Origin: an uncultured Solobacterium sp. | GTDB taxonomy: Bacteria; Bacillota_I; Bacilli_A; Erysipelotrichales; Erysipelotrichaceae | DNA: 42,959 nucleotides | Reading direction: 5' to 3' | Assembly: GCA_900543035.1 (NCBI GenBank) | Contig: UQPV01000019.1 | Location: 1-42,959 of the forward strand | In this document: one piece after another, positions 10,602-42,396 of the stretch | Position numbering within the stretch: the first letter of the stretch is position 1 | How the letters are laid out: each line of letters begins with the position of its first letter | Translations under genes and position numbers: made by a program | Notes under the pieces: model-generated | Database searches by the model: none | What the model was told of the DNA's origin: nothing | Seen by the model: the letters and a program-made list of their open reading frames with translations, nothing else

Positions 10602-12020
10602 TTATGCTGCTTGATCTGCAGATGATTCATCCACGATGACATCCGGCAGCGTGATCGTGATCGTCGTCCCGATGTTCTCTCGGGAAAACAGATCGATCTT
10701 GCCATGATAATAGCGCGCGATGTGTTTGACGATGGACAGTCCCAGGCCGGTCCCGCCGATCTTGCGGCTTCGTCCTTTGTCCACCCGGTAGAAACGTTCG
10801 AAGATATGCTTTTCATCTTCCTTGCTGATGCCGATGCCGCTGTCTTCCACCGTGATCACCAGCAGGTTCTCCTGTCTGCGGATCAGCACATCGACCGTTC
10901 CGCCTTCATGATTATATTTGATGGCATTGCTGATGAGATTGCCGATGAGCTGCTCCACATGCTTCTGCGACATATGCACGCAAAGCGTCTCACACTGCAT
11001 CTCCAGCATGACCCGATGCTCGTTGGCCATCGGCGTGAATGACTTGCACAGCTCTTCCACGGCGGGGCGCAGGGCGATATCGGTCTTCTTCTCCACGACG
11101 TCATTGCCTTCCAGCCGGGAGATCATGAGGATATCGGTGATCAGCGCGGTCATGTGCGTCGTCTCTTTCAGGATGCGGTCCACACATTCCTGCGCCTGCT
11201 TGGGATCGTTGACGACACCGCTTCGCAGCAGTTCACCATATCCGCGGATGCTGGTCAAGGGCGTCTTCAGCTCATGGGAAGCATTGTCAAAGAATTCCTG
11301 GCGGATCTTCTTCTCGCTTTTCAGCTTTTTCAGATAATGATTGATCTCATTTTCCATCTGTTCGATCGTCGAAGCGATCTCATTGAGCTCATCATACTCA
11401 AATGTACGAAACTTCAGCGTCGTTCCCTCTTTCTGCGATTCACGGATGGTCCTGCCGATCTCGCGCAGCGGACGGGTCACCGAACGGGCCGATTTGCGCG
11501 AGAGGATGATGGCGATGAGCAGTGCGACCGCAAAGGAGATAGCTGCCACCGGCAGCAGCGTCATCGCATAGCTGTCTAATCCCTGATAAGGGATGGCCAT
11601 CCGGTAGACCGCATGCTGCTCCTTTGAATAAAGGGCGACATACATCATCCGAATGTTCATCGTCGTAGAATCGCGCACGGCATATCCCATGCCGTCTGCG
11701 CTGCTCAGCGCCATCTGCACCTCTTCCCGCTCCAAATGGTTCTCCATATCCCCGCGCACATCGCTGTCCAGCAGCACGGTGCCGTCTTCATCGATGATGG
11801 TCAGCCGGGAATCATCCCCTCTGAGCGAATCAGAGAGATCGTCTTTCTGCTCGACGAGGTTTTCCACCGGGATGGATCGTATCGTCTGCAGCACATACTC
11901 GAGATCCCTGCGGGTAGACTCCATCATGATGTTGGAGACGACCAGATAAAAGATCAGAAAGCCGCAGAGCAGGGCCGCTGTCACGACCAGCACATAATCT
12001 CTCAGTATCCGTTTTCTCAT
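10602..12020 (-). CDS. phoR: sensor histidine kinase, PhoR type
   Basis: This 472-residue membrane kinase has TM1 (about 9-30), an extracytoplasmic sensor region, TM2 (about 152-174), a HAMP region and a HisKA segment with phosphoacceptor His249 in ASHELKTPL. The ATPase domain carries NLISNAIKYN (N box), DSGIGIS (G1) and GGTGLGLSIVKHIA (G2). Its start overlaps the stop of the response regulator as ATGA, with GGAG upstream, so the two are coupled. The naming as PhoR is inferred from the operon with a phosphate transporter and the Pho-box-like repeats ahead of it. The domain order would fit other sensors too. A strong terminator follows. Confidence 0.85.
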   Translation of the reverse strand: MRKRILRDYVLVVTAALLCGFLIFYLVVSNIMMESTRRDLEYVLQTIRSIPVENLVEQKDDLSDSLRGDDSRLTIIDEDGTVLLDSDVRGDMENHLEREEVQMALSSADGMGYAVRDSTTMNIRMMYVALYSKEQHAVYRMAIPYQGLDSYAMTLLPVAAISFAVALLIAIILSRKSARSVTRPLREIGRTIRESQKEGTTLKFRTFEYDELNEIASTIEQMENEINHYLKKLKSEKKIRQEFFDNASHELKTPLTSIRGYGELLRSGVVNDPKQAQECVDRILKETTHMTALITDILMISRLEGNDVVEKKTDIALRPAVEELCKSFTPMANEHRVMLEMQCETLCVHMSQKHVEQLIGNLISNAIKYNHEGGTVDVLIRRQENLLVITVEDSGIGISKEDEKHIFERFYRVDKGRSRKIGGTGLGLSIVKHIARYYHGKIDLFSRENIGTTITITLPDVIVDESSADQAA

Positions 12021-12709
12021 GTATTGCTCTCCTGCACGAAGCGGTAGCCTACGCCGCGGATCACCTGGATCCATCCGTCATAGGGCTCTCCCAGTTTGCG
12101 GCGCAGCGAGTTGATGTGCACATCCAGCGTCCTGCTCTCTCCTACGAAGTCATATCCCCAGATCTGATTGAGCAGCTCCTGACGGCTCACCGCCTTGCCC
12201 TTATGGGAGATCAGATACTTGAGCAGCTCGAATTCCTTATATGTCAGATCCACCTGCTGCTCGCGCACATGCACGGTGCGTCCGTCAAAGTCGATGTTCA
12301 GCCCCTCTTCGTTGAAGTTATGCGTCTCGCTGTGGCTCGTTCCGCTTCTGCGCATCAGCGAACGGATGCGCGCCGTCAGTTCCAGCACCGAGAACGGCTT
12401 GGTCATGTAGTCATCTGCGCCCTGATCCAGACCGATGACCTTATCCAGCTCGCTGTCCTTCGCGGTCAGGATGATGACCGGCAGCCCGCTCAGATGCTCA
12501 TCCTCGCGGATCCGGGCGATCAGCTCCAGGCCGGTCATCCCCGGCAGCATCAGATCAAAGATGCCCATGTCTGCGCTGTTCTTCTTCAGATATTCCCAGG
12601 CCGTCTCCGCATCCTCAAATGACACGGTCTCATACTGGAACTGCATCAGCGTCAGTTCGATCAGATTACGAATGCTTTCATCATCTTCTACAATCAGAAT
12701 TCTCGCCAT
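12017..12709 (-). CDS. phoP: OmpR/PhoB-family response regulator, PhoP type
   Basis: Residues 1-120 form a receiver domain with acidic pair Glu8-Asp9/Asp10, phosphorylation site Asp52 (IFDLMLPG), Thr82 and Lys104. Residues 130-230 form a winged-helix DNA-binding domain ending in VIRGVGYRF. This class binds direct repeats with about 11-bp spacing, which is the geometry seen upstream of the operon. The gene starts 26 bases after the Na/Pi transporter stop and overlaps the kinase gene, so all three should be one transcript. A role in phosphate control is inferred from context. Confidence 0.88.
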   Translation of the reverse strand: MARILIVEDDESIRNLIELTLMQFQYETVSFEDAETAWEYLKKNSADMGIFDLMLPGMTGLELIARIREDEHLSGLPVIILTAKDSELDKVIGLDQGADDYMTKPFSVLELTARIRSLMRRSGTSHSETHNFNEEGLNIDFDGRTVHVREQQVDLTYKEFELLKYLISHKGKAVSRQELLNQIWGYDFVGESRTLDVHINSLRRKLGEPYDGWIQVIRGVGYRFVQESNT

Positions 12710-12735
12710 AATCTTCCCTCTTTCCTTTCACGGCT

Positions 12736-14388
12736 TCAGGCGCCTTGAATCTGTTCCTCTCGGACATAATCTGCCAGATGCACCGCATAGCTGCTGATCC
12801 GCTGCAGATGCCCGATCGCATCGAGGAACAATACGCCGGCTTCTACCTGACAGCGCTGCTGCGCAAGCCTGCGGATGTGCCGGTCACGGATCTGCTCCTC
12901 CAGCTGCGTGACCATGCGTCCGCTCTGCACTGCCTTCTGATAGCGCTGTGTTTCCTGCGGATCCTGCCAGAAGGAGAGCGCCTCCTCCAGCGTCTCGCTG
13001 CTCTGGGCGCTGATGAGCTGCAGGTCCTCATAGCCACCGATGGAGAACATGCTGTTTTCCTTCAGCATCAGCTCACTGAGCTCAGCCAGATCCTTGCAGC
13101 GATCAGAGATCTTTTCCAGATCATTGACCATGAGCAGCAGATGCCGCAGCTGCATCTGCTGATGCTCATTCAGCGCAGCAATGTCGATGTGCACCATATA
13201 CTGTGTAAGCTCCCGCTCATAGCGGTTGACGATCGCTTCATTTTCATAGACCCTGTGGATCGCCTTCTCGCTGCGGTTGACGATCGCCTTGCGGCTGGAT
13301 TCGATATTGCCCAAGACGACGCTGCCCATGCGGCGCACTTCCTGCTTGGCCGATTCAAACGCGAATGCCGGCGTCTCCAGGATGCGGCTGTCCAGCGCCG
13401 GCGCAAAGGGATCCGGCTTTTCCTGCGGCTTCACGATGCGGCGGGCCAAGGCCTCCAGCTGGTCCGCGAACGGAAACAGCAGCGCGGTGGCCGCCACATT
13501 GAAGAACGTATGGAACAGCGCCAGCTCCACGCTGTTGAGCGGCGCCGCGCCGATCCAGGGAAACAGCGTGAATACCACGGCCGCACCTATGGCGAACACT
13601 GCGGCGCCGATCGTGTTGAACAACAGATGGATGAGCGCCGCGCACCTTCCGTTCCGCCCTGCGCCGGCCCCGGCGATCAGCGCGCTTACACATGTTCCGA
13701 TATTTTGTCCCAGCGCGATATAGACCGCACTGTTCCATGTAACTATACCATTCATTGCCAGGGTTTGTAAAATGCCAAGTGAAGCGGATGAGCTCTGAAG
13801 CAGGGCCGTCACGCCGAAGCCGACCGCGATGCCCAGAAGCGGATGCGTGCCGATCACGATAAACGCCTCGGTAAAGAAAGGCGAATCGCTGTATGGCGCA
13901 ACCGCGGCGCTCATGTTTTCCAATCCGAGAAACAACAGACCGAAGCCGGCCAGGATGCTTCCTACATCACGTCGGCGCGGTTCTTTTCCGCTCAGCAGCA
14001 GCGCCACGCCGATCCCCAGCAGCAGCGGGGCGAAGAACTGCGGACGAAGCAGGTTCCCCCATTCGTTCATAGAGACAAGCCATGCGGTCAGCGTCGTGCC
14101 GATGTTCGCACCCATGATGATGCCCACGGCCTGGCTCAGCGTCATCATGCCGGCATTCACGAATCCCACTGCCATGACCGTGGTCAGTGAAGAGCTCTGG
14201 ACGATCGCGGTGATCAGCGCGCCTACCGCAACGCCCAGCAGGCGGTTGTCTGTGAACAGACGCATAAAACGCCGGCTTTTCTCTCCGGCGCTCTTCTGCA
14301 GTCCCTCTGACATGATGTGCATGCCGAACAGGAACATGCCCAGACCGCCGATAAAGGAAAACAGGGCGTTCAGTACACTCATACCCAT
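12736..14388 (-). CDS. Na/Pi cotransporter family protein with PhoU-like C-terminus
   Basis: The N-terminal part has the paired QSSS repeats of the PF02690 family: ITAIVQSSSLTTVMAVGF near residue 60 and VTALLQSSSASLGILQTL near 205, each with hydrophobic helices. From about residue 340 to the end it is helical and hydrophilic, with a PhoU-like pattern (LLLMVNDLEKISDRCKDLAEL). Such proteins import phosphate with sodium in several bacteria. I place the start at 14388, where AAGGA lies 11 bases upstream; 14400 and 14382 are alternatives. It leads an operon with the phoP/phoR pair and is preceded by Pho-box-like repeats. Confidence 0.88.
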   Translation of the reverse strand: MGMSVLNALFSFIGGLGMFLFGMHIMSEGLQKSAGEKSRRFMRLFTDNRLLGVAVGALITAIVQSSSLTTVMAVGFVNAGMMTLSQAVGIIMGANIGTTLTAWLVSMNEWGNLLRPQFFAPLLLGIGVALLLSGKEPRRRDVGSILAGFGLLFLGLENMSAAVAPYSDSPFFTEAFIVIGTHPLLGIAVGFGVTALLQSSSASLGILQTLAMNGIVTWNSAVYIALGQNIGTCVSALIAGAGAGRNGRCAALIHLLFNTIGAAVFAIGAAVVFTLFPWIGAAPLNSVELALFHTFFNVAATALLFPFADQLEALARRIVKPQEKPDPFAPALDSRILETPAFAFESAKQEVRRMGSVVLGNIESSRKAIVNRSEKAIHRVYENEAIVNRYERELTQYMVHIDIAALNEHQQMQLRHLLLMVNDLEKISDRCKDLAELSELMLKENSMFSIGGYEDLQLISAQSSETLEEALSFWQDPQETQRYQKAVQSGRMVTQLEEQIRDRHIRRLAQQRCQVEAGVLFLDAIGHLQRISSYAVHLADYVREEQIQGA

Positions 14389-14412
14389 ATGTTTACACAT
14401 CCTTACAGTTGT

Positions 14413-14467
14413 ATTATGTCATTCGTCCCGTAAAAAAGTATTCATCCGTTTGTAAAATCGGTGTAAA
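14413..14467 (-). promoter_or_regulatory. Pho-box-like array and -10 for the Na/Pi transporter-phoPR operon
   Basis: Read on the minus strand, hexamers TTTACA (14462-14467), TTTACA (14451-14456), a weak ATGAAT (14440-14445) and TTTACG (14429-14434) start at exact 11-base steps. The Bacillus PhoP site is four TT(A/T/C)ACA-like repeats with about five bases between. A possible -10, CATAAT (14413-14418), follows with no good -35, as expected for an activated promoter. Confidence 0.65.
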
Positions 14468-28736: not shown

Positions 28737-28779
28737 TTTACTCCCGCTTAACACAAACTTTACGTTGATGTGATTTAAT
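28737..28779 (+). promoter_or_regulatory. Pho-box-like array upstream of the orphan response regulator
   Basis: TTTACT (28737-28742), TTAACA (28748-28753), TTTACG (28759-28764) and a weak GTGATT (28770-28775) start at exact 11-base steps. TTTAAT at 28774-28779 may serve as -10. The arrangement is the same as that ahead of the Na/Pi transporter operon. Confidence 0.6.
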
Positions 28780-28798: not shown

Positions 28799-29479
28799 AT
28801 GATGAAACATATCCTGGTGATCGATGATAATGAAGATGTGCGCAAGATCATCGGCTATGATCTGCTCAAGGCCGGATTCGCAGTCGACGATGCCGAAGAC
28901 GGCACGAGCGGATTCGCGCTCGCCTGCCAGCGCACCTATGACCTGATCATCATCGACTGGATGATGCCGGGGATGAACGGATTGGCGCTGACCCGCGCCC
29001 TGCGTGCCAGAAACATCCGCAGCGTCTTGTTCATGTTGACGGCGAAAGACGGCGACAACGATCTGGAAGAAGCCTTTGCCGCCGGCGTCGACGACTATCT
29101 GCGCAAGCCGTTTTCGCCCCGGGAGCTGCAGATCCGCATCCGCAAGCATCTGCAGGGCAGGTCCCTCAGCGAGCCAGAGGACAAAGCGATCCTGCACTAT
29201 CGGGACCTTACGCTCGATGAACGCAGCCGCCGCTTCCTCATCGCCCAGACAGAGATCCCCCTCACCCGCAAGGAATTCGATCTCATGGATCATTTCATGC
29301 GGCATCCGGAAACGGTGCTTTCCCGCAATGAGATCCTCAATGCGCTGTGGGGCTTTGATTATGACGGGGACACGCGGATCATCGATGTGCATGCGTCCAA
29401 GCTGCGCGGCAAGCTGACTGGCAGCCAGGCACAGATCACCTCATCCAGAGGCATAGGCTATATCCTTCAGCCACGCTGA
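28799..29479 (+). CDS. orphan OmpR-family response regulator
   Basis: The protein has a receiver domain (Asp9-Asp10, phosphorylation site Asp53 in IIIDWMMPG, Thr81, Lys103) and a winged-helix output domain (about 130-226, ending GIGYILQPR). Length is 226 residues. No histidine kinase lies next to it. AAGGAG precedes ATG 28799; a second ATG follows directly. Pho-box-like repeats upstream suggest that it is controlled by, or belongs to, the phosphate response, but it could equally bind these 11-bp repeats itself. Confidence 0.88.
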   Translation: MMKHILVIDDNEDVRKIIGYDLLKAGFAVDDAEDGTSGFALACQRTYDLIIIDWMMPGMNGLALTRALRARNIRSVLFMLTAKDGDNDLEEAFAAGVDDYLRKPFSPRELQIRIRKHLQGRSLSEPEDKAILHYRDLTLDERSRRFLIAQTEIPLTRKEFDLMDHFMRHPETVLSRNEILNALWGFDYDGDTRIIDVHASKLRGKLTGSQAQITSSRGIGYILQPR

Positions 29480-29497
29480 TGCGCCTATGCCTTTTTT
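29449..29497. terminator. terminator overlapping the response regulator end
   Basis: Ten-base arms AGGCATAGGC (29449-29458) and GCCTATGCCT (29483-29492) with a 24-base loop are followed by six T. The stem begins within the coding region. Confidence 0.7.
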
Positions 29498-29703
29498 CAT
29501 GTCTTTTCTACTGCGCCTGCCACATAGCCAAGCACCGCCAGCAAAGCGGCAAGCAGCGCGAACAGCGGCTGCCTGCACACGATGGCCGCGGCCGCGAGCA
29601 GCAGCACGATCAGCACGCTGAAGCCGCGGCTGTGCGAAGCGATCCGCACATAGGCCAGCAGCCCGAATGCAAGCGCGGCGATCAGGATCGTGGTCTCGCT
29701 CAT
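29497..29703 (-). CDS. small two-to-three-helix membrane protein, unknown
   Basis: The 68-residue protein starts MSETTILIAALAFGLLAYV and is almost entirely hydrophobic, with likely helices near 5-20, 27-43 and 45-63. GGAGG lies eight bases before ATG 29703, which supports real translation. It follows the exporter ATPase gene by 16 bases and is the last gene of the surface-polymer operon. I recognise no family. Confidence 0.6.
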   Translation of the reverse strand: MSETTILIAALAFGLLAYVRIASHSRGFSVLIVLLLAAAAIVCRQPLFALLAALLAVLGYVAGAVEKT

Positions 29704-29719
29704 CCCATCTTCCTCCCGG

Positions 29720-30481
29720 CTATCGTTTGCCGTCGTTTTCATGCCGTTTCCGATAACGGCGCATGAACCCTTCATAGTTTTCCACCACTTCCGCGGCAGG
29801 ACCATATTCCTTCACCAGGCCATCATGGATCCACAGCACATCGTCACAGAGCTCAAGGATGCTGGCATTGCTGTGAGAGACGATCATGACGGTCTTGTCC
29901 TTATGCGAGATGATCTCCTTCATCTTGGCATAGCTCTTCTCCCGAAAGCTCATGTCGCCCACGCTGAGCACTTCATCGATCAGGATGATCTCTGTGTCCA
30001 GAAATGCCGTGATAGAGAACGCCAGCTTGGAATGCATGCCGCTGGAATACGTCTGCACCGGCTTATAGATAAAATCGCCCAGCTCTGAAAACTCGATGAT
30101 CTCCGGCAGCCGCGCGCGGATCTCCTTCTCCGTAAATCCCAGCAGCAGCCCGGACAAGAAGATGTTCTCATAGCCGCTCAGCATCGTCTGAAAGCCGATG
30201 CCGATGGCGAGCAGCGAAAGCCGGTTGCCGAAGGTATCGATCGTGCCCTCATCCGGCGAGAACACGCCGGCGATCGTCTTCAGCAGCGTGGATTTTCCGC
30301 TTCCGTTCTTGCCGATGATCCCGATGATCTTCCCCTTGGGCACCGTGAAGCTCACGCCGCGCAGCGCCTCATAGCTGTCACGGCGCTGCCGGATCTGCCC
30401 CAGGCTCTTGCGCAGCGAGAACGACTTCATGCTGCGGTAACGCACATGGACGTCCTTGACCTCGATCGCAGGTTCGTTCAT
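29720..30481 (-). CDS. polysaccharide/teichoic acid ABC exporter ATPase (Wzt/TagH-like)
   Basis: This is the ATPase of an ABC-2 polysaccharide exporter. Walker A is GKNGSGKST (residues 57-65), the ABC signature is YSSGMHSKL, and Walker B is IILIDEVLSVGD. The N-terminal SFSLRKSLGQIRQ stretch before the core is characteristic of the TagH/RfbE/Wzt branch. The 253-residue protein has no long C-terminal carbohydrate-binding extension, so substrate choice must lie elsewhere. Its ribosome site sits at the end of the permease gene. Confidence 0.92.
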   Translation of the reverse strand: MNEPAIEVKDVHVRYRSMKSFSLRKSLGQIRQRRDSYEALRGVSFTVPKGKIIGIIGKNGSGKSTLLKTIAGVFSPDEGTIDTFGNRLSLLAIGIGFQTMLSGYENIFLSGLLLGFTEKEIRARLPEIIEFSELGDFIYKPVQTYSSGMHSKLAFSITAFLDTEIILIDEVLSVGDMSFREKSYAKMKEIISHKDKTVMIVSHSNASILELCDDVLWIHDGLVKEYGPAAEVVENYEGFMRRYRKRHENDGKR

Positions 30482-30484
30482 GTC

Positions 30485-31288
30485 TTACACCACCTTTACA
30501 TAATTGTTCTCATGACGGTACATGAGAAACAGTCCGATGCCCAGCAGCACGACAGAGAACGCCAGCCAGTAAAGGAACATCATCGGCCGCAGCGCTTCCC
30601 CGTAAATGATGATCTGGCGGAACTCGTTGATCAGATACGCCACCGGGTTGACATGGGTCATGAGCCAGCCGATGTCGATTCCCATGAAGATCCGGTTGCC
30701 CAATCGATCGCCGATGTCATAAAAGACACCGGACAGATAGAACATGAACCGCAGGATGACCTGAACGATATTGTACAGATCGTTCACATAGACGCCGAAA
30801 TGCGCCACGATCACGCTGCAGGCCAGCGTCAGGATGAAGACGAGCACAAGCAGCGGGATGCAATAGAGCAGCTGCAGGCGAAACGGGATCCCATACGCGA
30901 TCATGAACCCGGCCACGATCCCGAAGGAGATCATCATCTTGAAGAAATTCACATACATCTTTTCTAAGATGAGCATGTATTTGGGTATGTAGATCTTAGA
31001 GACGATGCCCTTGAACGTATTGACGATCTTGACCGAGATCGACACGTTCTTGTTGAAGAAGTTCCATATCGTCAGTCCGATGATGACCACCACCGGCAGA
31101 TATTCTCCTTCCGTACGGAACACCACGACCGTGATGAACACATAGACGAGCATGAACAGCACCGGATCCAGGATCCACCAGATCCAGGTCAGATAAGACG
31201 CGCTGACCTCGCTCTTCAGCTCTGATTTCGCGGCATAGACAGAATACGGATTATACCGTTTCAGATGCCGCCATACTTTTTGAATCAT
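30485..31288 (-). CDS. polysaccharide/teichoic acid ABC exporter permease (Wzm/TagG-like)
   Basis: A 267-residue ABC-2 permease with six hydrophobic segments after a basic N-terminal region ending SELKSEVSASYLTWIWWILDPVLFMLVY, the typical opening of TagG/RfbD/KpsM proteins. It pairs with the ATPase downstream to flip a lipid-linked polymer to the outer face. The second ATG (31288), with GGGGGC eight bases upstream, is preferred to 31294. Confidence 0.92.
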   Translation of the reverse strand: MIQKVWRHLKRYNPYSVYAAKSELKSEVSASYLTWIWWILDPVLFMLVYVFITVVVFRTEGEYLPVVVIIGLTIWNFFNKNVSISVKIVNTFKGIVSKIYIPKYMLILEKMYVNFFKMMISFGIVAGFMIAYGIPFRLQLLYCIPLLVLVFILTLACSVIVAHFGVYVNDLYNIVQVILRFMFYLSGVFYDIGDRLGNRIFMGIDIGWLMTHVNPVAYLINEFRQIIIYGEALRPMMFLYWLAFSVVLLGIGLFLMYRHENNYVKVV

Positions 31289-31302
31289 AACCATGCCCCC
31301 AT

Positions 31303-31680
31303 CTATATGTAGTTCAGCATTTTTTCCGCCGGGCGCCGCCAGTCCATGAGCACGATGTTCTTCAGCGTGAGCTTTCGATGATAACGTTCATAATAATCCA
31401 GCGAAAGGAACCGCACGCCCGGATGAACGCGCATCAATCGATGGATGTCCAGCGTATGGCCATGCACCACGACGACGATGCGGGTATTGTCCCGCCGCAC
31501 CTGCGCGTAATGCTGCAGGATGTCATCCATCTCTTCCAGCGCATGCAGCTGATAGACCATGAAATAGTCCTGACTGCGGTACAGCGTCGGCGCAGCCGGA
31601 CGCACACTGCGATACAGCTTCTTGGCGATCCGATAGAGGACCGCATTTTTCTTTGCGATCTTAATGAGCCACTTCTTCAT
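31303..31680 (-). CDS. hypothetical protein in surface-polymer cluster
   Basis: The 125-residue protein is basic at the N-terminus (MKKWLIKIAKKNAVLYRIAKKLYRS) with no signal peptide. It continues with a soluble alpha/beta-looking region including TRIVVVVHGHTLDIHRLM and ends WRRPAEKMLNYI. I do not recognise it. It lies between the two-domain glycosyltransferase, with which it overlaps by 20 bases, and the exporter permease. Start 31680 has GGAGG five bases upstream. Its place suggests a role in polymer assembly or export. Confidence 0.65.
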   Translation of the reverse strand: MKKWLIKIAKKNAVLYRIAKKLYRSVRPAAPTLYRSQDYFMVYQLHALEEMDDILQHYAQVRRDNTRIVVVVHGHTLDIHRLMRVHPGVRFLSLDYYERYHRKLTLKNIVLMDWRRPAEKMLNYI

Positions 31681-33790
31681 CATTGCCTCCATGTCTGAGC
31701 AGACGCGAGATGCTCTGCCAGATCACTTCAATGTCATAGTTTTCCGCCGCATATGCCCGGCATGCCTCGATATCTTCCTGAAGCTGCCGCGGATGATCCT
31801 GATAGAACAGGATGCGTGCGGCCATGCGCTCCACCGTCTCGACGACACAGGCCTTCGGATACAGATATTCGATGCCTTCCCATGGCAGCGCCAGCGCCAT
31901 GGCGCGGGATGCCAGACCTTCAAACGGCGTCACATGAAAGCTCTCCGGCTGCTTGGCATCGCTCATCGACAGCACATAGCCGATCTTGCTCAGGAAAGCA
32001 GGCACATCCACCCATCCGTCGAAGATGACCGCATCCTCCAGGTGTTCCTCCTTGATCTGCTGATAGATGCGCTCATAATAAGCGCGTTCCTCAGGGACGT
32101 TCCACGTATTGGCGAATTCCTCCGGCCGCTTTCCCGGCACATGCAGGACATAGCGGGAATCATGACGGCGCAGCAGCTTGATCAGCTCGACTGCGCGGGC
32201 CAGTCCTTTGCGCTTCGGCAGCGCGCCGATCAGCGCGATATGGAACTGCGCATCTTCCCGCTTCGGCCGTTCATAGTTCTTCATGTCGATGAAATTATTG
32301 ATCACACAGCATTTTTCCAGCGGGATCGAAAAACGGCGCATGAATTCTTCCATGTAATAATACGAGACCGTGATGAGCTGATCCAGCGCGATCACATTGA
32401 GGCTTCGGCCGAACCGGCGGTTCACCTCAAAGCGATGGGCCCGCACGAACAGCCGCTGATGCGGATAAGCGTTTCGCGAATACCAGCGGGCGCTCGTCAA
32501 CAGCCATTCACACCAGATGATGTCGGCCCGATCGCGCAGCCGCTTCGCCTCCCGCACCGAGAAATCGGTATATTCGCTTTGTTCCTGCACGATGAGGTCA
32601 TATTCTTCCTTCATACGCGCAAACAGCGGCTTCAGGAACTTCAGGTCATGCCCGGATACGAGCAGGCGCTGACGCTGCTCAGGAAATACGCTGAGCGCTT
32701 CCCTCATCATCTGTATCGTCTTGGGCACGCTGAACCTTGCGGCCCGCTCGTTCAGCTGTTCGCGCAGACGTTCGATCCGGTTTCCTGCAAACGCCCAGCG
32801 GATCTTTTCCAGGCATTCCTGCTCGCTCTCCGCAAACAGCGGATAATCGCTGCCGAGGATCTCCTCATGCATGGCGCTTCGGCGAAGCACCATCGGGATG
32901 CCGGCCTGAAGATATTCGAGCAGCTTGACGGAGACCTCAAGCGAGCCGTCATGGTCCACCCGGGTGGAACGGAATGCATAGCCCAGCTCGCAGCGGCTCA
33001 TCACCTCCCGCAGATCGCCGCGGGAAAGCGAGCCGTAAAACTGGATGTTCTCTCCTTCGTTAAGCCGGCGGAAGATCTCCTCTTTTTCCTCCGCCATGTC
33101 GCGGTTGACCTTATCGCCGACCATATGCAGCGTGATGTCTGGATCGCTGTTCTTCAGCTCTTCCATGATGTCCAGCAGCTCGATGATGTTCCAGTCTCTT
33201 GCGATCTTTCCGGCATAGATCAGCGAACCGCGCTCTCGTTCAGCCTGCGGAAACGGGAACACGATCGGATAGAGCACACGGTATTTGGCGCCGTCCACGC
33301 CCAGCACCTGCTGCAGATAGCGTTTCATGGCGTCTGTCTGCACCAGATAGACCTTCACCCGCTCATACAGCGTGCGCAGAAAATCTTTCTCCGCATCGCT
33401 GATCTGTTCGCTGTCATGGCAGAAATCGGTCAGATATGGCACCACCCGATCGATCAGCGGAGAATGCAGCAGCGGCTTCATCACGCCCATACCGCGGATA
33501 ATGAAGCAGGCATAGTCCCGCAGCGCGTCGATGCGGCTGATCACCTTCACGATATTGCCCGCATCCACCTCCGTCAGTCTGTCGATATAGTTTTTCACAT
33601 ACAGCAATCGGACCCGGTAAATGCCGCGCAGCTCACGGACGAGGCGCTCATTGCGGATCCGCTTCTTGAGCAGGATATCCACCATGATCTCCTCATCCAT
33701 GCTTAACAGCCGTGCCAGATTGACCAGCCACACGCTGGAGCCATCGATCAGGTTCAGATCGACGTCCCCATAGATCAATATCTTTTTCAT
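31661..33790 (-). CDS. large protein with two GT4-type glycosyltransferase domains
   Basis: The 709-residue protein contains two GT-B units in tandem. The first spans about residues 1-370, with SLIYAGKIARDWNIIELL and the donor-site segment DGSLEVSVKLLEYLQAGIPMV. The second spans about 385-700, with IALIGALPKRKGLARAVELI and an EX7E motif in PESFHVTPFEGLASRAMAL. It probably adds two sugars in succession to the polymer. No membrane segment is seen. Start 33790 begins MKKILIYGDVDLN; AAGGAG is 15 bases upstream, rather far. An earlier ATG at 33832 adds only residues read from within wecC. Confidence 0.85.
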   Translation of the reverse strand: MKKILIYGDVDLNLIDGSSVWLVNLARLLSMDEEIMVDILLKKRIRNERLVRELRGIYRVRLLYVKNYIDRLTEVDAGNIVKVISRIDALRDYACFIIRGMGVMKPLLHSPLIDRVVPYLTDFCHDSEQISDAEKDFLRTLYERVKVYLVQTDAMKRYLQQVLGVDGAKYRVLYPIVFPFPQAERERGSLIYAGKIARDWNIIELLDIMEELKNSDPDITLHMVGDKVNRDMAEEKEEIFRRLNEGENIQFYGSLSRGDLREVMSRCELGYAFRSTRVDHDGSLEVSVKLLEYLQAGIPMVLRRSAMHEEILGSDYPLFAESEQECLEKIRWAFAGNRIERLREQLNERAARFSVPKTIQMMREALSVFPEQRQRLLVSGHDLKFLKPLFARMKEEYDLIVQEQSEYTDFSVREAKRLRDRADIIWCEWLLTSARWYSRNAYPHQRLFVRAHRFEVNRRFGRSLNVIALDQLITVSYYYMEEFMRRFSIPLEKCCVINNFIDMKNYERPKREDAQFHIALIGALPKRKGLARAVELIKLLRRHDSRYVLHVPGKRPEEFANTWNVPEERAYYERIYQQIKEEHLEDAVIFDGWVDVPAFLSKIGYVLSMSDAKQPESFHVTPFEGLASRAMALALPWEGIEYLYPKACVVETVERMAARILFYQDHPRQLQEDIEACRAYAAENYDIEVIWQSISRLLRHGGNDEEVAH

Positions 33791-33794
33791 CGCA

Positions 33795-35027
33795 TCACCG
33801 TTTTTCTCCTTGTTCAAATCCGATGCAGTCATAATGCGGGACGCTGAGGATCTTCGCCCTTGCCTGCGGGCTCAGAAATTCGCGGTGTCCCAGCGCAATG
33901 ACCACATGGTCGCAGACATCCAGGCATTCATCGAGCGAAAGCAGCGGGATGCCCTCCAGCGTATCCGCGGTGGAATTCGGCTCACAGCCATACACCGCAT
34001 AGCCTTTTTCCTGCAGCAGATGCGCAAGATGCAAAGACGGGCTTTCCCGCATATCATCGATGTCCGGCTTATATGCCATGCCCAGGATGCCGATCTTTTC
34101 GCTGTGATCGCCCTTCAGCTGCTTTTCCATCTGTTCCATGACCCAGCGCGGCTTGCCATCGTTGATCACTCGCGCTTCATGGATCAGCGAAGCATCTTCC
34201 TGATAGCGCTCCACCAGGAACCATGGATCGACCGCAAGGCAGTGTCCGCCCACGCCCAGTCCCGGGCTCAGGATGTTGACCCGCGGATGGCGGTTGGCCA
34301 GCGCGATCAGCTCATGCACATCGATGCCTGCGACAGCGCAGATCTCGCTGAGCTGATTGGCAAAGGCGATATTGATGTCCCGGTAAGTGTTTTCCACCAG
34401 CTTGCACATCTCCGCGGTCACATCATCACAAGTCAAACAGTGCCCTTCCTTGACAAAGGTCTCATATAATTCCTTGGTCATCTGAGCGGCACGCGGATCG
34501 GACGAACCGATGATGCGGTCATTGTGTTCGAGCTCATACAGGATGCGGCCAGGAAGCACCCGCTCCGGGCAATGCGCCGTATAGAAGCTGCCCATCGGCA
34601 GACCGCTCTCCTCTGCCAGCACCTCGCTCATCATCTGCGTCGTGTGCGGCGGAACGGTCGATTCCAGGATGACCAGGTCGCCTTCCTTCAGCACAGAAGC
34701 GACGAGCTTGGCCGCGGAACGCACATAGCTGAGATCCGCGCGTTTGACCTCTCCTTCCAAAAACGGCGTCGGCACGCACAGGATATAGATCTGCGAAGGC
34801 TCCAGCTCGCTGGTGATGCGCAGATTGCCGCTTTGCTGCACGGCGGAAAATGCTTCCTGAAGGTGGTTTTCCACGATGTGGATCCTGCCCTCACTCAGGC
34901 TTTCCCTCACGCTCGGATTGACGTCGTATCCCTTGACCAGATGGCCCGCCTGAGCGAGGACCACCGCCGTCGGCAGACCGATATACCCCAGTCCAACTAC
35001 ACTGATTTCTCTCTTCTCTGCTTTCAT
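33795..35027 (-). CDS. wecC: UDP-N-acetyl-D-mannosamine dehydrogenase
   Basis: This enzyme oxidises UDP-ManNAc twice with NAD+ to UDP-ManNAcA. The NAD loop is VVGLGYIGLP near the start. The catalytic region is NILSPGLGVGGHCLAVDPWFLV, where the Cys in GGHC is the nucleophile. AVDPWF rather than the KDPxF-type segment separates WecC from UDP-glucose dehydrogenases. Length is 410 residues. The start at 35027 is supported by AGGTGA. Substrate would come from WecB encoded 0.9 kb away. The gene overlaps the 3' end of the tagA-like frame by 137 bases. Confidence 0.93.
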   Translation of the reverse strand: MKAEKREISVVGLGYIGLPTAVVLAQAGHLVKGYDVNPSVRESLSEGRIHIVENHLQEAFSAVQQSGNLRITSELEPSQIYILCVPTPFLEGEVKRADLSYVRSAAKLVASVLKEGDLVILESTVPPHTTQMMSEVLAEESGLPMGSFYTAHCPERVLPGRILYELEHNDRIIGSSDPRAAQMTKELYETFVKEGHCLTCDDVTAEMCKLVENTYRDINIAFANQLSEICAVAGIDVHELIALANRHPRVNILSPGLGVGGHCLAVDPWFLVERYQEDASLIHEARVINDGKPRWVMEQMEKQLKGDHSEKIGILGMAYKPDIDDMRESPSLHLAHLLQEKGYAVYGCEPNSTADTLEGIPLLSLDECLDVCDHVVIALGHREFLSPQARAKILSVPHYDCIGFEQGEKR

Positions 35028-35742
35028 TTTCATTCACCTGTCTCTTCTTTCTCTCTTTTCTGATCATTCGTTCAAACCGGAACAGCTCCGGCAGCTGTGA
35101 AAAACGTCTGGGTTCCAGCACCATGCGGAACAGCCACTCGAATCCGAGGTTCTGGATCCAGCGCGGCGCCCGGACGAGGGAGCCGCTCAGTATATCAAAT
35201 GCTCCGCCGACCCCCAGATATACATTCGCGCACGTTTTTTCCTTGTTTTCCGCGATCCATCTCTCCTGGGCCGGTGTCCCTTTGGCGACGAAGACGATGT
35301 TCGCCTGACTGGCGTTGATCTGTTCGACGACATCGTCGTCTTCATATCCGCTGCAATGACCGACGATGCGGATATCGGGATAGCGGGAACGCAGCACCTC
35401 CTGGGCCTTCAGGTTGTTGGACAGGAGGGCGCCATATAAAAAGATGCTGAGACCGAGATCCGCGGCATGCGCGCAGAGATCTTCCATCAGATCCACGCCG
35501 GTGATCCGTTCGACCGGCTCCTGCGCAGCTTTCACGACAGCGGCGCCGTCTGCCAGAAACACATCAAACGTATCCAGCAGCCTGCGGGTCTCCTCATGCT
35601 CAACGGCTCGTACGATCTTGCGGGCATTGACAGCGACCATCGCCAGCTTCTGCCTGTTGTCGACAGCGGCCTTGACCGCACGGCGGATCTCTTCTTTGCT
35701 TGTCACGCTCAGCCTGACGCCGAGCACGGTAATTTCCTTCAT
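34891..35742 (-). CDS. tagA: WecG/TagA-family glycosyltransferase with anomalous C-terminal tail
   Basis: WecG/TagA enzymes add ManNAcA or ManNAc from the UDP-sugar to a polyprenyl-linked GlcNAc. Family features include FLADGAAVVKAA, ERITGVDLMEDL, IFLYGALLSNNLKAQ and FVAKGTPAQERWIAENK. The conserved domain ends near residue 230 (LPELFRFERMIRKERKKRQ). About 47 further residues are read out of frame through the start of wecC. A TGA one base off frame lies directly before the wecC start (35034-35036), so a one-base change in the adjacent purine tract would give a normal 235-residue protein. ATG 35742 has GGTGAG upstream. With wecC beside it, a ManNAcA donor is more likely than ManNAc. Confidence 0.85.
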   Translation of the reverse strand: MKEITVLGVRLSVTSKEEIRRAVKAAVDNRQKLAMVAVNARKIVRAVEHEETRRLLDTFDVFLADGAAVVKAAQEPVERITGVDLMEDLCAHAADLGLSIFLYGALLSNNLKAQEVLRSRYPDIRIVGHCSGYEDDDVVEQINASQANIVFVAKGTPAQERWIAENKEKTCANVYLGVGGAFDILSGSLVRAPRWIQNLGFEWLFRMVLEPRRFSQLPELFRFERMIRKERKKRQVNENESREERNQCSWTGVYRSADGGGPRSGGPSGQGIRRQSEREGKPE

Positions 35743-35766
35743 CAGCTCACCATCTTTTCTCCCTAG

Positions 35767-35832
35767 AATATACCAACAGACACGGGTCTGTTTATTCACC
35801 GCTCAGTAATGATATCGTTAAGATTCTGTTAA
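35767..35832 (-). promoter_or_regulatory. Pho-box-like repeats and -10 facing tagA
   Basis: On the minus strand TTAACA (35827-35832), TTAACG (35816-35821) and ATTACT (35805-35810) start at 11-base steps. TATATT at 35767-35772 is a likely -10. The repeats would lie at about -45 to -72. Confidence 0.55.
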
Positions 35833-35854
35833 GCAATCGTCGTCACATCACTTC

Positions 35855-35919
35855 TTTACCGTTTCTTTACGATAACTTGTTCCTCTGATGATGTTTGGCT
35901 GCCGCATACCCGCTAATAT
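35855..35919 (+). promoter_or_regulatory. Pho-box-like repeats and -10 facing wecB
   Basis: TTTACC (35855-35860), TTTACG (35866-35871) and the weaker TTGTTC (35877-35882) start at 11-base steps. TAATAT at 35914-35919 is a candidate -10. The distance to the -10 mirrors that on the tagA side. Confidence 0.55.
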
Positions 35920-35956
35920 GGACTCATAAAATGAAGCGACCAAAAGGAGGATCCTC

Positions 35957-37072
35957 ATGTATAAAGTCATGTGTATTTTCGGCACCCGGCCGGAGGCCAT
36001 CAAGATGGCACCGGTCATCCACGCGATCGAACAGCATCCCCAGCTGCAAGGCATCGTCTGCATCAGCGCCCAGCACAGAGAGATGCTGGACAGCGTGCTG
36101 GAGACATTCAAGATCAAGCCCGATCATGATCTGAACATCATGAAGCACGGCCAGACCCTGCACAGCATCACCTGCGACATCCTGGAGCGGCTGACACCTG
36201 TGCTGCAGGATGAGAAGCCCGACATGATCCTGGTCCACGGCGATACCACGACGACCTTCGCAGCCGCGCTCGCCGCGTTCTATCAACAGATCGCCATCGG
36301 GCATGTCGAGGCAGGGCTGCGTACTTATCATAAGTATTCCCCTTATCCGGAGGAGATGAACCGTCAGCTCGTCTCCCGCATGGCTGACCTTCACTTTGCC
36401 CCGACAGCGACCAGCCGGGACAACCTTCTGCAGGAACACATCAGGGAAGAGCAGATCATCGTGACCGGAAACACGGCCATCGACGCGCTGAAGCTCACCG
36501 AATGCGAGGCGTATGACCATGAGGCGCTGCGATGGGCCGACGGGCACCGCATCCTCCTGCTGACCGCGCACCGGCGGGAAAATCAGGGCCAGGGACTGAG
36601 ACAGATCTATGCGGCCGTACGCACGCTTTGCGAGACTTATCCGGACATCCGGGTGATCTATCCCTGCCACATGAACCCGAACATCCGCAAGCTGGCACAT
36701 GAATGCCTGGACGGCTGCAGCCAGGTATTGATCAGCGAACCGATGGAGGTCTACGATTTCCACAACCTCATCCGTCACGCCTATCTGATCCTGAGCGACA
36801 GCGGCGGGATCCAGGAAGAAGCGCCGAGCCTGGGCAAGCCGGTCCTCGTGCTGAGAGATACGACCGAACGCCCGGAAGGCATCGCGGCAGGAACGCTGAA
36901 GCTGGTCGGCACCGATACCGACTCGATCGTCCGCGAGACATCCATCCTCTTGGATGATCCCCACGCTTACGCCGCTATGGCCAACGCGGTGAACCCTTAC
37001 GGCGACGGCAGGGCAAGCGAGAGGATCACCGACGCCCTCATCTCTTATTTTGAGAGGAACGCGGCAAAATAA
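35957..37072 (+). CDS. wecB: UDP-N-acetylglucosamine 2-epimerase (non-hydrolysing)
   Basis: This cytoplasmic enzyme interconverts UDP-GlcNAc and UDP-ManNAc. FGTRPEAIKMAPV at the N-terminus, HGDTTTTFAAALAAF and HVEAGLRTYHKYSPYPEEMNR in the first domain, and SDSGGIQEEAPSLGKPVLVLRDTTERPEG in the second are all diagnostic. Length is 371 residues. AAAGGAGG precedes ATG 35957. It is divergent from the tagA-wecC operon that would use its product. Confidence 0.96.
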   Translation: MYKVMCIFGTRPEAIKMAPVIHAIEQHPQLQGIVCISAQHREMLDSVLETFKIKPDHDLNIMKHGQTLHSITCDILERLTPVLQDEKPDMILVHGDTTTTFAAALAAFYQQIAIGHVEAGLRTYHKYSPYPEEMNRQLVSRMADLHFAPTATSRDNLLQEHIREEQIIVTGNTAIDALKLTECEAYDHEALRWADGHRILLLTAHRRENQGQGLRQIYAAVRTLCETYPDIRVIYPCHMNPNIRKLAHECLDGCSQVLISEPMEVYDFHNLIRHAYLILSDSGGIQEEAPSLGKPVLVLRDTTERPEGIAAGTLKLVGTDTDSIVRETSILLDDPHAYAAMANAVNPYGDGRASERITDALISYFERNAAK

Positions 37073-39315: not shown

Positions 39316-42258
39316 TCAATGCGCCCTATGCTTCCTCCTCAGCCATGCGGCTGCCAAGATAGATCCTGCAGAAAGCGCTGCCCATGGCAGAGCTGTGCTG
39401 TTCGCCGCAGTCTTCGGCTTACGCGTATTCTCGATGCGGATCAAGACGGTCTGTGACACGCCCGGCGTATCTTCATCTAACACGATCTTGCTCACTTCGT
39501 TTGATGGCTGATAGCCTTCAGGCGCCTGCAGCTCTTTCAGGTAATAGGTGCCATAGCGCAGTCCGGAAAACACTGCCGTTGCGCTCTCCTGATCCGCGTG
39601 CGCCTTCATGATCAGCGTCTTGCACGCCTCATCCGCATACAGCCCGAATACGAAATCGCGCCCCTTGATCGGCTCGCCGCTCGCTGAATCGACCTTTTGT
39701 ATTTTCAGATCGCTCAAGACCGCCTCATTCTCCACGCGCAGCTGCAGCTGCTGATGATCATCGCTGATCTGTACATGATAGATGTCATCCGTGCGCGCAT
39801 AGCCATAAGGCGCCTGTTCCTCCACGATCCAATAATCGCCGAATTCCAGATCGTCAAACACGATCCGTCCATCCGGACCGCTCTCTCCCTCCATGACCAG
39901 ATCCTGCAATGCCGCATCCGCATAAAGCGCAAAGCGCGCGCCTTCCAGCAAGCTGCCATCCTCTGCATCTGCCTTGATCAGCTCTATGCTCCCGCGTTTG
40001 AGCACGTTGACCGCATCGCCCAGCGCGATCGTGATCATGGAGACATCTTCCTGGCCGAAGCTGACCGTAAATGGATATTCCGTTTCTGACAGCTGATATC
40101 GCTCATCTGTCGCCAGCTCCCTGAGCACATAATCGCCCTGCGGAAGATCCGGACAGTCCTCGAGCATCCCTTGCGCATCCACGCCGCTTACACTGATCAA
40201 CTGTCCGGCCGGGATGCCGATGCTGCCATCGCTGAAGCAGATATCCGACACCGCAAAGATCCCAAAGCGCACGTTCGCGAGCGCGTCGCCCAGCTCGCTG
40301 TACTGCGGCTCCTCCATCTGCTTGTGAAACTGCAGGCGGATGCGGACATGCGCATTATGCAGGCGGTCAGACACCAGCTGCAGTTCCGTGCTCTCATCGT
40401 CCTTGATCTCAAAGGGGTGACGCTGACGATCGATGACATGCCCCGGCAGCGTCCTGGTCTCCACATAATAATACTTGCCGCAAAGCAGGTCCGGCGACTG
40501 CACAGGGGCGCTGCCGGATTCCAGCACCGCTACCTGCTCATCCTGCTTCGCATAGGTCACGCCGCCCACCGTGATGTCCTCTGCAGCGAAGATGGCGATC
40601 TGCGCGCCGCTCAGCGTACCTTCTTCCCACACTGGCGTGAGCATCGTCCCAAATTCGCTCTCCTGCTTTTCATTCCGCTGATAAAGGCTGCCTGTCTTCT
40701 GCCAGCTCAGCTTGCCCTTGACCAGCTCATCCTCCATCGTGACCGTTGCATCCTGCACAGCATGACGGTCTCCCTCCTCATCGTACACATAGACACGGCC
40801 ATCTTCATCGAGCTCAAACACGATCTTCTCGCTGCAGGCAAAGCCATATGGCGCAGACGTCTCTTCCAGGATCAGCCGCTGTCCGCAAGGGAGCCCGCGC
40901 ACCACCTCAGGCGCGTCTGCGCTCGTCCATTGCTTCAGGATCGTCTTCGGATCATCTTCCGGATAGATGCGCAATTCAGCGCCTGCCAGAAACGCCCCTG
41001 TGGAGGCGTCCAGCTTGTGAAAGCGGACCTCTGTCTGCTCATTTTCCACCGTCACGCAGATCAACGGCGTCTTTCCATCCGGCAAGGTCTCATGCTCCCC
41101 ATCTTCTCCGATGCTCACCTTGATCGGCGCTGTGTTCAGGACATATCCATACGGCGCCTTGTGTTCCCTGATCTCATAGTCGCCATATGGCAAGGCGTCT
41201 ATCTGCGCCGTTCCGCTCTCATCTGTCTCGATCACTTCGACCAGCTGACCATCTGATGCCCGATAGACGCCGAACTGCACGCCGGCGATCTCGATCATCT
41301 CTTTGCTTTGAGCATCCTTCTTCAAGATCCGCAAAGCGCCGTTGACCCTGACCTCCACGCTGACCTCTGCCAGCTTCGGCGAAGGTCGGCCAAGCGTCAT
41401 CACATCCTGAGAAGTCGGGCTGTCAAACACGACAGGGATGATCGCTGAGGCGTTTTCATACAGGCAGCTGAAGGTCACCTTGCCTGTCTCCATTTCCTGG
41501 TCCACCCAGATGCGCAGCGCATTCCCATCCTGCTCGACATGCAGGCCCTCGCTGATCTCAGAAGGGACATACCATTGGAACAAGCCATGTTCATCGCACA
41601 GCGTCACGGCATCCTCCTCGCCCAGCGCATGCAGCTTCACCTGTGTCCCATGGAAAGAGACCTCCTTTTCCATCAGTGCCAGACGGGATTCGATCTGGGA
41701 GATCTTCTTTTGGATGTCCGCATGGATATGGCTGATGGACGGGTATTGCCCGGGCTTCCATTCATGCAGAGTCCTCCAGATACAGACCTGTGTGGCAAAG
41801 TCCATCTCATGCGACGTGTCGCCCTGAAAGCCATAGCCCAGCGCTGTGATGTATGACAGCTTCTGACGGACGGACGCATCAGTGACATACGCGCCAAAGG
41901 AGATATCGTCATAATCCTGCGATCCGTCGACCGCATTCGTAAGCGGATCTACGCAATAGACGCGCTGATCGTTGATCCAGATCCGTGAATAGACGCAGCT
42001 GTCATAGCCGGTGTTGCTCTTTTCGCTCATCTTGATGACCCACTTGTTGTCATAATCAGTATGGAGCCCCTTGGGGGTCTCGACCCGCACCTTGAATCCG
42101 CTGCGGATCAGATCCGTCGGAGAGATCTTCACCTCCATCTTCGCTTCTGCCTCAGCAGGCACGATCTGACGCGCCTGCAGCGGAAGCTGAACAGACTGGC
42201 TCAGGCACAGGACGCAGATGATCATCAGCGTTCCCAGTCTTTTCAAAACCCTTTTCAT
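39316..42258 (-). CDS. thioester-domain surface adhesin with SpaA/Cna-B repeats
   Basis: The 980-residue protein has a signal peptide (about 1-30), then a thioester domain in which Cys102 (YCVDP) and Gln157 (ATQVCIW) should form the internal thioester. Six SpaA/Cna-B type domains follow, starting near LRILKKDAQ, VRFHKLDAS, LSWQKTGS, IRLQFHKQM, IELIKADAE and LKIQKVDSA. Most contain a late Glu in a YGDYEIREHKAPYGY-like segment that would support Lys-Asn isopeptide bonds. The C-terminus is a sorting-signal layout (hydrophobic helix, then RRKHRAH), but the motif is KPKTA at 947-951 in place of LPxTG. It is probably a covalently binding host adhesin. Start 42258 has AGGAG seven bases upstream. No sortase is in the window. 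Confidence 0.9.
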   Translation of the reverse strand: MKRVLKRLGTLMIICVLCLSQSVQLPLQARQIVPAEAEAKMEVKISPTDLIRSGFKVRVETPKGLHTDYDNKWVIKMSEKSNTGYDSCVYSRIWINDQRVYCVDPLTNAVDGSQDYDDISFGAYVTDASVRQKLSYITALGYGFQGDTSHEMDFATQVCIWRTLHEWKPGQYPSISHIHADIQKKISQIESRLALMEKEVSFHGTQVKLHALGEEDAVTLCDEHGLFQWYVPSEISEGLHVEQDGNALRIWVDQEMETGKVTFSCLYENASAIIPVVFDSPTSQDVMTLGRPSPKLAEVSVEVRVNGALRILKKDAQSKEMIEIAGVQFGVYRASDGQLVEVIETDESGTAQIDALPYGDYEIREHKAPYGYVLNTAPIKVSIGEDGEHETLPDGKTPLICVTVENEQTEVRFHKLDASTGAFLAGAELRIYPEDDPKTILKQWTSADAPEVVRGLPCGQRLILEETSAPYGFACSEKIVFELDEDGRVYVYDEEGDRHAVQDATVTMEDELVKGKLSWQKTGSLYQRNEKQESEFGTMLTPVWEEGTLSGAQIAIFAAEDITVGGVTYAKQDEQVAVLESGSAPVQSPDLLCGKYYYVETRTLPGHVIDRQRHPFEIKDDESTELQLVSDRLHNAHVRIRLQFHKQMEEPQYSELGDALANVRFGIFAVSDICFSDGSIGIPAGQLISVSGVDAQGMLEDCPDLPQGDYVLRELATDERYQLSETEYPFTVSFGQEDVSMITIALGDAVNVLKRGSIELIKADAEDGSLLEGARFALYADAALQDLVMEGESGPDGRIVFDDLEFGDYWIVEEQAPYGYARTDDIYHVQISDDHQQLQLRVENEAVLSDLKIQKVDSASGEPIKGRDFVFGLYADEACKTLIMKAHADQESATAVFSGLRYGTYYLKELQAPEGYQPSNEVSKIVLDEDTPGVSQTVLIRIENTRKPKTAANSTALPWAALSAGSILAAAWLRRKHRAH

Positions 42259-42356
42259 CCTTTCACTCCTTTCCGTCTGCCTCGACAGAGACAGACCATT
42301 CTCTTGCCTTCCTTTACCTGATACGCCTGTTTTCCGTTTCTCCCCTCGCACACATG

Positions 42357-42385
42357 AAAAAAAAGTCCGGGATCTTTTCCCGGAC
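42357..42385 (-). terminator. terminator after the DtxR-family gene
   Basis: A perfect seven-base stem, GTCCGGG and CCCGGAC, is followed on the minus strand by eight T. It separates the regulator from the adhesin gene. Confidence 0.9.
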
Positions 42386-42396
42386 CTGACCGTCAC

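Follow-up and report, generated by a model that had tools for sequence, protein, structure and literature searches.

The window analysed here, a stretch of 42,959 nucleotides from an uncultured Solobacterium sp. (GCA_900543035.1, contig UQPV01000019.1) that is a relative of Merdibacter (Erysipelotrichaceae), carries a cluster of surface-polymer genes (29497-37072) and, in the gap between its divergent genes wecB and wecG, direct repeats that resemble Pho boxes. We hold it somewhat likelier to be right than wrong that the cluster is a phosphate-controlled set for a teichuronic-acid-like surface polymer that contains N-acetylmannosaminuronic acid (ManNAcA) and is exported by an ATP-binding cassette (ABC) transporter; judged from its genes, the product is probably an acidic, phosphate-free sugar polymer made at low phosphate. 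Genome-wide statements are drawn from the genomes of relatives. The Merdibacter-type relatives compared are L001 (Candidatus Merdibacter merdigallinarum), L002 (M. massiliensis, genome G002), and L072 (the locus of genome G208, for which "Merdibacter-type" is our own label, taken from its place in the G002 family and its identical gene arrangement), and the non-Merdibacter clusters are L003, L004, and L005. The two-domain glycosyltransferase family 4 (GT4) protein of the window shares 68% identity with its L001 counterpart and 66% with the one of L002.

The wecB gene lies on the plus strand and diverges from a tight minus-strand run of wecG, wecC, the gene of the two-domain GT4 protein, a gene for a protein of 125 residues, wzm, and wzt, in which the genes overlap or are separated by short gaps. 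An earlier note on this DNA had listed wecB, wecC, a WecG/TagA transferase, a double GT4 protein, the 125-residue protein, a Wzm/Wzt-like exporter, and a small membrane protein; family profiles bear out the families that it named (profile scores are given in bits against Pfam or NCBIfam cut-offs), and its coordinates are right, with probable starts internal to the listed frames for wecG (35742), the GT4 gene (33787), the 125-residue protein gene (31680), and the small membrane protein gene (29703). Hairpins with T runs stand at both ends, 3' of wecB (-25.6 kcal/mol) and 3' of the neighbouring response regulator gene (-23.0 kcal/mol).

Predicted enzymes for precursor supply, chain assembly, and export

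The precursor genes point to ManNAcA. WecB (35957..37072, plus strand) is a uridine diphosphate (UDP)-N-acetylglucosamine (GlcNAc) 2-epimerase by profile (TIGR00236, 512 bits against a cut-off of 210; PF02350) and would make UDP-N-acetylmannosamine (UDP-ManNAc), while WecC (33795..35033, minus strand) is the candidate UDP-ManNAc dehydrogenase that would convert it to UDP-ManNAcA. The uronic acid precursor enzyme is thus represented in the cluster by a UDP-ManNAc dehydrogenase-like protein that reaches 408 bits with model NF008286, under the equivalog cut-off of 459, as against 148 bits with the TuaD and 140 with the TviB model. Its nearest solved relative is Cap5O (305 bits), the best UDP-glucose dehydrogenase reaching 169 bits, so that it scores as a UDP-ManNAc and not as a UDP-glucose enzyme.

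The wecG/tagA-like gene (34891..35742, minus strand) codes for a transferase of glycosyltransferase family 26 (GT26; PF03808, 176 bits; TagA structure 7mpk at 1.5e-33) that may place ManNAcA or ManNAc onto GlcNAc-pyrophosphoryl-undecaprenol, the sugar and the acceptor being predictions. Model scores could not tell WecG from TagA (137 bits for WecG, 130 for TarA). The wecG frame overlaps the wecC frame by 143 bases in the window (34891-35033) and by 26 bases in L002.

The candidate polymerase is the two-domain GT4 protein (31661..33787, minus strand), two GT4 stretches in one frame of 723 residues that could add two sugars in turn. Its structure model has a mean predicted local distance difference test (pLDDT) score of 74, with residues 436-513 below 50, and a fold search with this model returned GT4-type glycosyltransferases (454 chains at E<=0.001), which we take to be GT-B folds; a sequence search of the PDB with the GT4 alignment gave no match. 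Identity across six relatives is 48-68%, and at E<=1e-60 the protein occurs in only 3 of the 272 genomes of the G002 family. We infer that ManNAcA sits in the repeating chain and not merely in a linker. A more specific proposal is decidedly tentative: the two-GT4 protein would be a fused teichuronic acid synthetase of gut Erysipelotrichaceae that builds a glucose-ManNAcA chain of the Micrococcus type inside the cell, with export by the ABC transporter, a Pho switch, and an adjoining second PhoB paralogue that bears a Pho box of its own.

The 125-residue protein (31303..31680, minus strand) has basic N-terminal helices followed by a small alpha/beta domain (model pLDDT 80). It belongs to no Pfam or NCBIfam family and has no PDB match at E<=0.001, and 14 proteins matched it at the same threshold; its gene adjoins the GT4 gene in L001-L007 and L072. 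Naming it through family, homologues, and fold yielded only weak likeness to parts of glycosyltransferases and to other Rossmann-type folds. Export would fall to Wzm (30485..31294, minus strand; PF01061, ABC2_membrane, 28.3 bits, barely over the cut-off of 26.9) and to the Wzt/TagH-like ATPase (29720..30481, minus strand; PF00005), which reaches 220-238 bits with two models of teichoic-acid exporters, short of the cut-off in both cases, and is 82-89% identical in L001-L005 and L072.

Conserved Pho-box-like repeats in the wecB/wecG gap

The gap holds two Pho-box-like direct repeats. The one facing wecG, TTAACA-N5-TTAACG (TTAACAGAATCTTAACG, 35816..35832, minus strand), matches at 12 of 12 positions in the window, L001, and L002, and the one facing wecB, TTTACC-N5-TTTACG (TTTACCGTTTCTTTACG, 35855..35871, plus strand, 102 nucleotides before wecB), at 11 of 12 in the window and in all three Merdibacter-type relatives. 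A conserved -10-like element, TATATTCTA (35764..35772, minus strand), precedes wecG; 8 of its 9 columns do not vary among four species. When the gap is aligned across these species, 11/17 columns of the wecG-facing box and 10/17 of the wecB-facing box are invariant, against 48/173 outside the boxes and the -10 element. The repeats were said to face both ways from the gap, and the best reading of each box agrees with this; GTTAAC is palindromic, however, and the wecG-facing box scores better on the wecB-facing strand in L001 and L002. To judge by the close relatives, the repeats are conserved to this extent: all three Merdibacter-type loci have retained the wecB-facing box, and two the wecG-facing box, the exception being L072.

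Boxes of the same form accompany phosphate genes. Three copies of the strict pair TTHAYR-N5-TTHAYR lie in the window, one each 5' of wecG, of a PhoB-like regulator gene at 28799, and of the nptA-phoB-phoR run; 60 simulations gave a mean of 0.22 and a maximum of 2. The nptA-associated repeat (14451..14467, minus strand) matches at 12/12 positions and precedes genes for a sodium/phosphate symporter with PhoU domains, a PhoB-like regulator, and a PhoR-like kinase (10602..14400, minus strand; PF02690, PF01895, HisKA, HATPase_c); this regulator reaches 222 bits with TIGR02154, below cut-off, and the PhoR/PhoB pair (10602-12709) is likely the controller of the wec cluster. Like boxes stand before nptA or phoB in G001, G002, and G208 (nptA in L057 and L058, phoB in G208) and before pstS in the four genomes compared (12/12 in G004 and G005, 11/12 in G001 and G002; G003 was left out for having too little upstream sequence). 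A matrix built from five uptake promoters of relatives, without any wec promoter or any promoter of the window, puts the wec gap 9th of 85,884 places in the window, 1st in L001 and L002, 2nd in L003, and 3rd to 4th in L072. Among ten spacings tried on the first five loci, 11 bp was the best by a wide margin, with a summed log rank of 1.86 against 4.28 for the next.

It is rather improbable, in our estimate, that the repeats bind another OmpR-type regulator, be it the PhoB-like protein encoded at 28799 or WalR, and that phosphate is not the signal. OmpR-type regulators, WalR included, recognize similar direct repeats, and the gene at 28799 carries a repeat of its own; the boxes of the same form before nptA/phoB and the pst genes of relatives speak for phosphate instead. 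The regulator in question (28799..29479, plus strand; TIGR02154, 175 bits, below the cut-off of 296) has no adjoining kinase gene, is encoded convergently to the wec operon, and is preceded by a Pho-box-like triple repeat (28737..28764, plus strand; 12/12 at 28748 plus a further half-site); G001 has a similar regulator gene with a box 5' of it (L102).

A looser count is less striking: allowing two mismatches, TTAACRNNNNNTTAACR occurs five times in the window against 1.9 expected, a number reached in 4 of 100 shuffles. Over whole genomes, the pattern TTAACRNNNNNTTAACR has one occurrence in G002 and three in G001, the wecG promoter included in each genome, and its reversed control gives 5 in G002 and 0 in G001. 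A relaxed pattern gave 39 matches, 30 of them with loci, of which 27 were examined (L039, L093, and L108 were left out); 12 of the 27 lie inside a frame of at least 70 residues. A conserved match inside wzm (window 30484) was set aside as coding.

Observations that weigh against this interpretation

Several observations, on the boxes and on the genes, count against a phosphate-controlled ManNAcA polymer. The second half-site of the wecG-facing box is decayed in L072, and L004 and L005, two of the three non-Merdibacter clusters, lack a clear box in the wec gap, which the matrix ranks only 13-16 in L004 and 19-36 in L005 (ranges over slightly different bounds). Column-permuted matrices equal the real one in 27/400 cases with five loci and in 51/400 with seven; AT-rich promoters thus account for part of the ranking. 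The relaxed pattern exceeds its reversed control only in G001 (13 vs 5; 14 vs 17 in G002 and 12 vs 11 in G208), and its genome count was therefore rejected as proof of a regulon, being not clearly above the control in two of the three genomes. On the side of the enzymes, M. massiliensis has a second PF03721-type dehydrogenase elsewhere (131 bits), and a TagO/WecA-like starter was not found in four of six genomes (G001, G003, G004, and G005; L079-L082), whose completeness is not stated. Pho boxes of the host form, 11-bp direct repeats, are present in the wec promoter region with a permutation control that is only moderate, and the case for Pho control draws on how the boxes are conserved and on which sorts of genes have them in common, rather than on how rare the motif is.

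The starter bears on chain initiation, as GT26 enzymes require lipid-linked GlcNAc. PF00953 proteins occur once or twice in each of the six genomes, and these counts could not be taken as TagO genes since the single copies of G001, G003, G004, and G005 are MraY, which leaves the lipid-linked GlcNAc start unaccounted for in these four genomes; the reason may be incomplete data or a different initiating enzyme. A second, WecA-like PF00953 protein occurs only in G002 (L077, 135 bits) and G208 (L078, 133 bits), below an E. coli-specific cut-off. In both loci, the WecA-like gene lies beside an MreB-like gene, as judged by the start of its sequence.

Phosphate-rich polymer genes and the linkage unit

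The cluster is free of phosphate-polymer genes, as had been noted before: no glycerol- or ribitol-phosphate gene and no PF04464 match are present among its proteins. In M. massiliensis, a pst operon (a binding protein and two permeases by Pfam) is followed some genes further by tagGH-like exporter genes, and this tagGH-tagD locus, separate from the wec cluster, codes for a glycerol-3-phosphate cytidylyltransferase (TIGR01518, over cut-off) and three PF04464 proteins, with dltB/dltA-like genes below cut-off. A Pho box was sought before the tagGH locus, and only AT-rich partial matches were found. PF04464 exceeds its cut-off also in G001 and G005, in the latter a few genes downstream of the wec cluster. 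Among the other genomes, whose completeness is not stated, G003, G006, and G208 gave no PF04464 match and G004 two below cut-off only, so that three genomes with the cluster (G003, G004, and G208) have none over cut-off; the complete clusters of G003 and G208 argue that the chain is made without CDP-glycerol (cytidine diphosphate-glycerol). CDP-glycerol transferase genes do lie outside the cluster in M. massiliensis and M. merdigallinarum, but given G003, G004, and G208 and the merely partial matches before tagGH, one part of the earlier proposal, that the polymer replaces a phosphate-rich one, is conjectural. Pho control and an exported polymer that contains ManNAcA are, in contrast, well supported by the supply of the ManNAcA precursor, the export genes, and the Pho-type boxes.

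The only Epimerase_2 protein and the only GT26 protein over cut-off of M. massiliensis both lie in the wec cluster, so the genes do not show a plain exchange of one complete pathway for another as in Bacillus; a second epimerase occurs in G001 and G004, and a second, partial GT26 match over cut-off in G003-G005. Judged by these genes, the phosphate polymer would either start otherwise or borrow its start from the wec cluster, and induction of the cluster could reshape any teichoic acid made in parallel, its GT26 and epimerase being the sole ones in M. massiliensis.

In another reading, ordinary wall teichoic acid would receive its linkage unit from this cluster (WecB as MnaA, the GT26 enzyme as TagA), shared with the TagF-type locus, and a ManNAcA polymer would be minor or only a branch. 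The single epimerase and GT26 of M. massiliensis, the lack of a GT26 protein among the scanned genes of its tagGH-tagD-tarF-like locus, and the similar scores of the WecG and TarA models fit such a role; we nevertheless regard it as unlikely, because a UDP-ManNAc dehydrogenase, a two-domain GT4 protein, and a separate exporter are encoded in the cluster, and because it is complete in G003 and G208, which, within genomes of unstated completeness, have no PF04464 match.

Conservation of the cluster and possible attachment to the wall

Conservation of the cluster in related genomes was confirmed by tblastn: wecB, wecG, wecC, the double GT4 gene, the 125-residue protein gene, wzm, and wzt occur in the same order in all six loci (L001-L005 and L072), and L006 has all cluster genes except wecB, although wzt and wzm have exchanged places and two further genes are inserted. 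As in the window, wecB is divergent in L001, L002, and L072; it heads the operon in L003-L005. Our search of the open-licence literature found no published account of such a cluster in Erysipelotrichaceae.

A phosphate-controlled acidic polysaccharide that forms a capsule or is secreted, and is not bound to the wall, is an alternative product: capsules are also served by ABC exporters of the Wzm/Wzt kind, and in the window neither frames nor family profiles revealed a LytR-CpsA-Psr (LCP) gene next to the cluster. An LCP gene lies, however, immediately 5' of wecB in L003, L004, and L005, and we give this alternative little chance; each of the six genomes has two to four LCP genes.

A further gene stands directly 3' of wzt at L004:14203-15993 and L005:14230-16116. 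The L004 product, cut by the end of the locus, is a glycoside hydrolase family 25 enzyme with choline-binding repeats, and the cluster may be accompanied by a wall enzyme in these two loci.

Proposed mechanism

A wall-linked, phosphate-sparing polymer could be made as follows. WecB and WecC would, by their families, make UDP-ManNAcA, and the GT26 enzyme, whose family is established by profile, would add a second sugar, probably ManNAcA, to lipid-linked GlcNAc. The two-domain GT4 protein would then lengthen the chain with two alternating sugars, perhaps the glucose and ManNAcA of Micrococcus luteus teichuronic acid, possibly helped in this extension by the 125-residue protein. Wzm and Wzt would, again by family, export the completed chain, and an LCP enzyme would attach it to peptidoglycan. 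At low phosphate, PhoR/PhoB would activate both divergent promoters by binding to the 11-bp direct repeats located there, and the wall would retain its anionic charge without a cost in phosphate.

Neighbouring features of the window

The small membrane protein at the end of the cluster (68 residues; 29497..29703, minus strand), whose longer frame belongs to no family, had no convincing match among 109 loci (only short ones at E 6.4-8.5) and is probably incidental to the cluster. Elsewhere in the window, an MGDG_synth-type glycolipid synthase is encoded at 16068-17183; no strict Pho box was found before its gene, and its product is possibly another phosphate-free envelope component. A surface protein of 1026 residues that combines a thioester domain with six SpaA-type stretches is encoded at 39316-42396. 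In the relatives, a PstS-like binding protein (L051:4245-5171, and at similar places in G001, G003, G004, and G005) has the two halves of its profile swapped, in the manner of a circular permutation.

Comparison with known systems

Bacillus is the best-known case of a Pho-controlled change in wall polymers. According to the available part of PMC6232261, phosphorylated PhoP of B. subtilis represses tagAB and activates tuaA-H at low phosphate, and Pho boxes are described as 11-nucleotide direct repeats in the accessible text of PMC4415409. The B. subtilis teichuronic acid is, in the sections available of PMC11841062, a polymer of glucuronyl-N-acetylgalactosamine, for which TuaB serves as transporter and TuaE as polymerase. 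The cluster resembles tuaA-H, as far as these sources describe it, in the predicted phosphate-free acidic wall polymer and in the 11-nucleotide repeats of its Pho boxes. It differs in its parts, namely WecB/WecC, a GT26 enzyme, a two-domain GT4 protein, and an ABC exporter, with the TuaD model scoring far below the WecC model; a set of the tua type (a TuaB-like transporter, a TuaE-like polymerase, and a UDP-glucose dehydrogenase) was not found in the cluster. If the interpretation is correct, phosphate sparing in the wall has been solved in more than one way, with different parts for chain making and export in gut Erysipelotrichaceae.

With the TagO-A-GH pathway of wall teichoic acid, the cluster shares a GT26 enzyme, the supply of UDP-ManNAc, and a TagGH-like exporter; unlike that pathway, it has a UDP-ManNAc dehydrogenase and no PF04464 protein or CDP-glycerol enzyme, and a TagO/WecA-like gene accompanies it in two of six genomes. 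Ssc of Staphylococcus aureus is a proposed phosphate-free surface polymer, mutants of which grow poorly at low phosphate, as stated in the available part of PMC11841062; in contrast to the cluster, the five genes listed there include Tua-like transporter and polymerase genes, and neither an ABC exporter nor a ManNAcA gene.

The teichuronic acid of M. luteus, as described in the accessible portion of PMC3005890, consists of glucose and ManNAcA, is made by a glucosyltransferase and a ManNAcA-transferase acting in a complex, and is joined through a linker that starts with GlcNAc. The M. luteus synthetase has two separate subunits of 54 and 52.5 kDa, whereas a single fused two-domain protein is encoded in the window. 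The gene set of the window could supply the M. luteus steps, a likeness drawn from the described enzymology and not from sequence alignment; if it holds, a compact gene set would open the M. luteus type of teichuronic acid, known from enzymology, to genetics.

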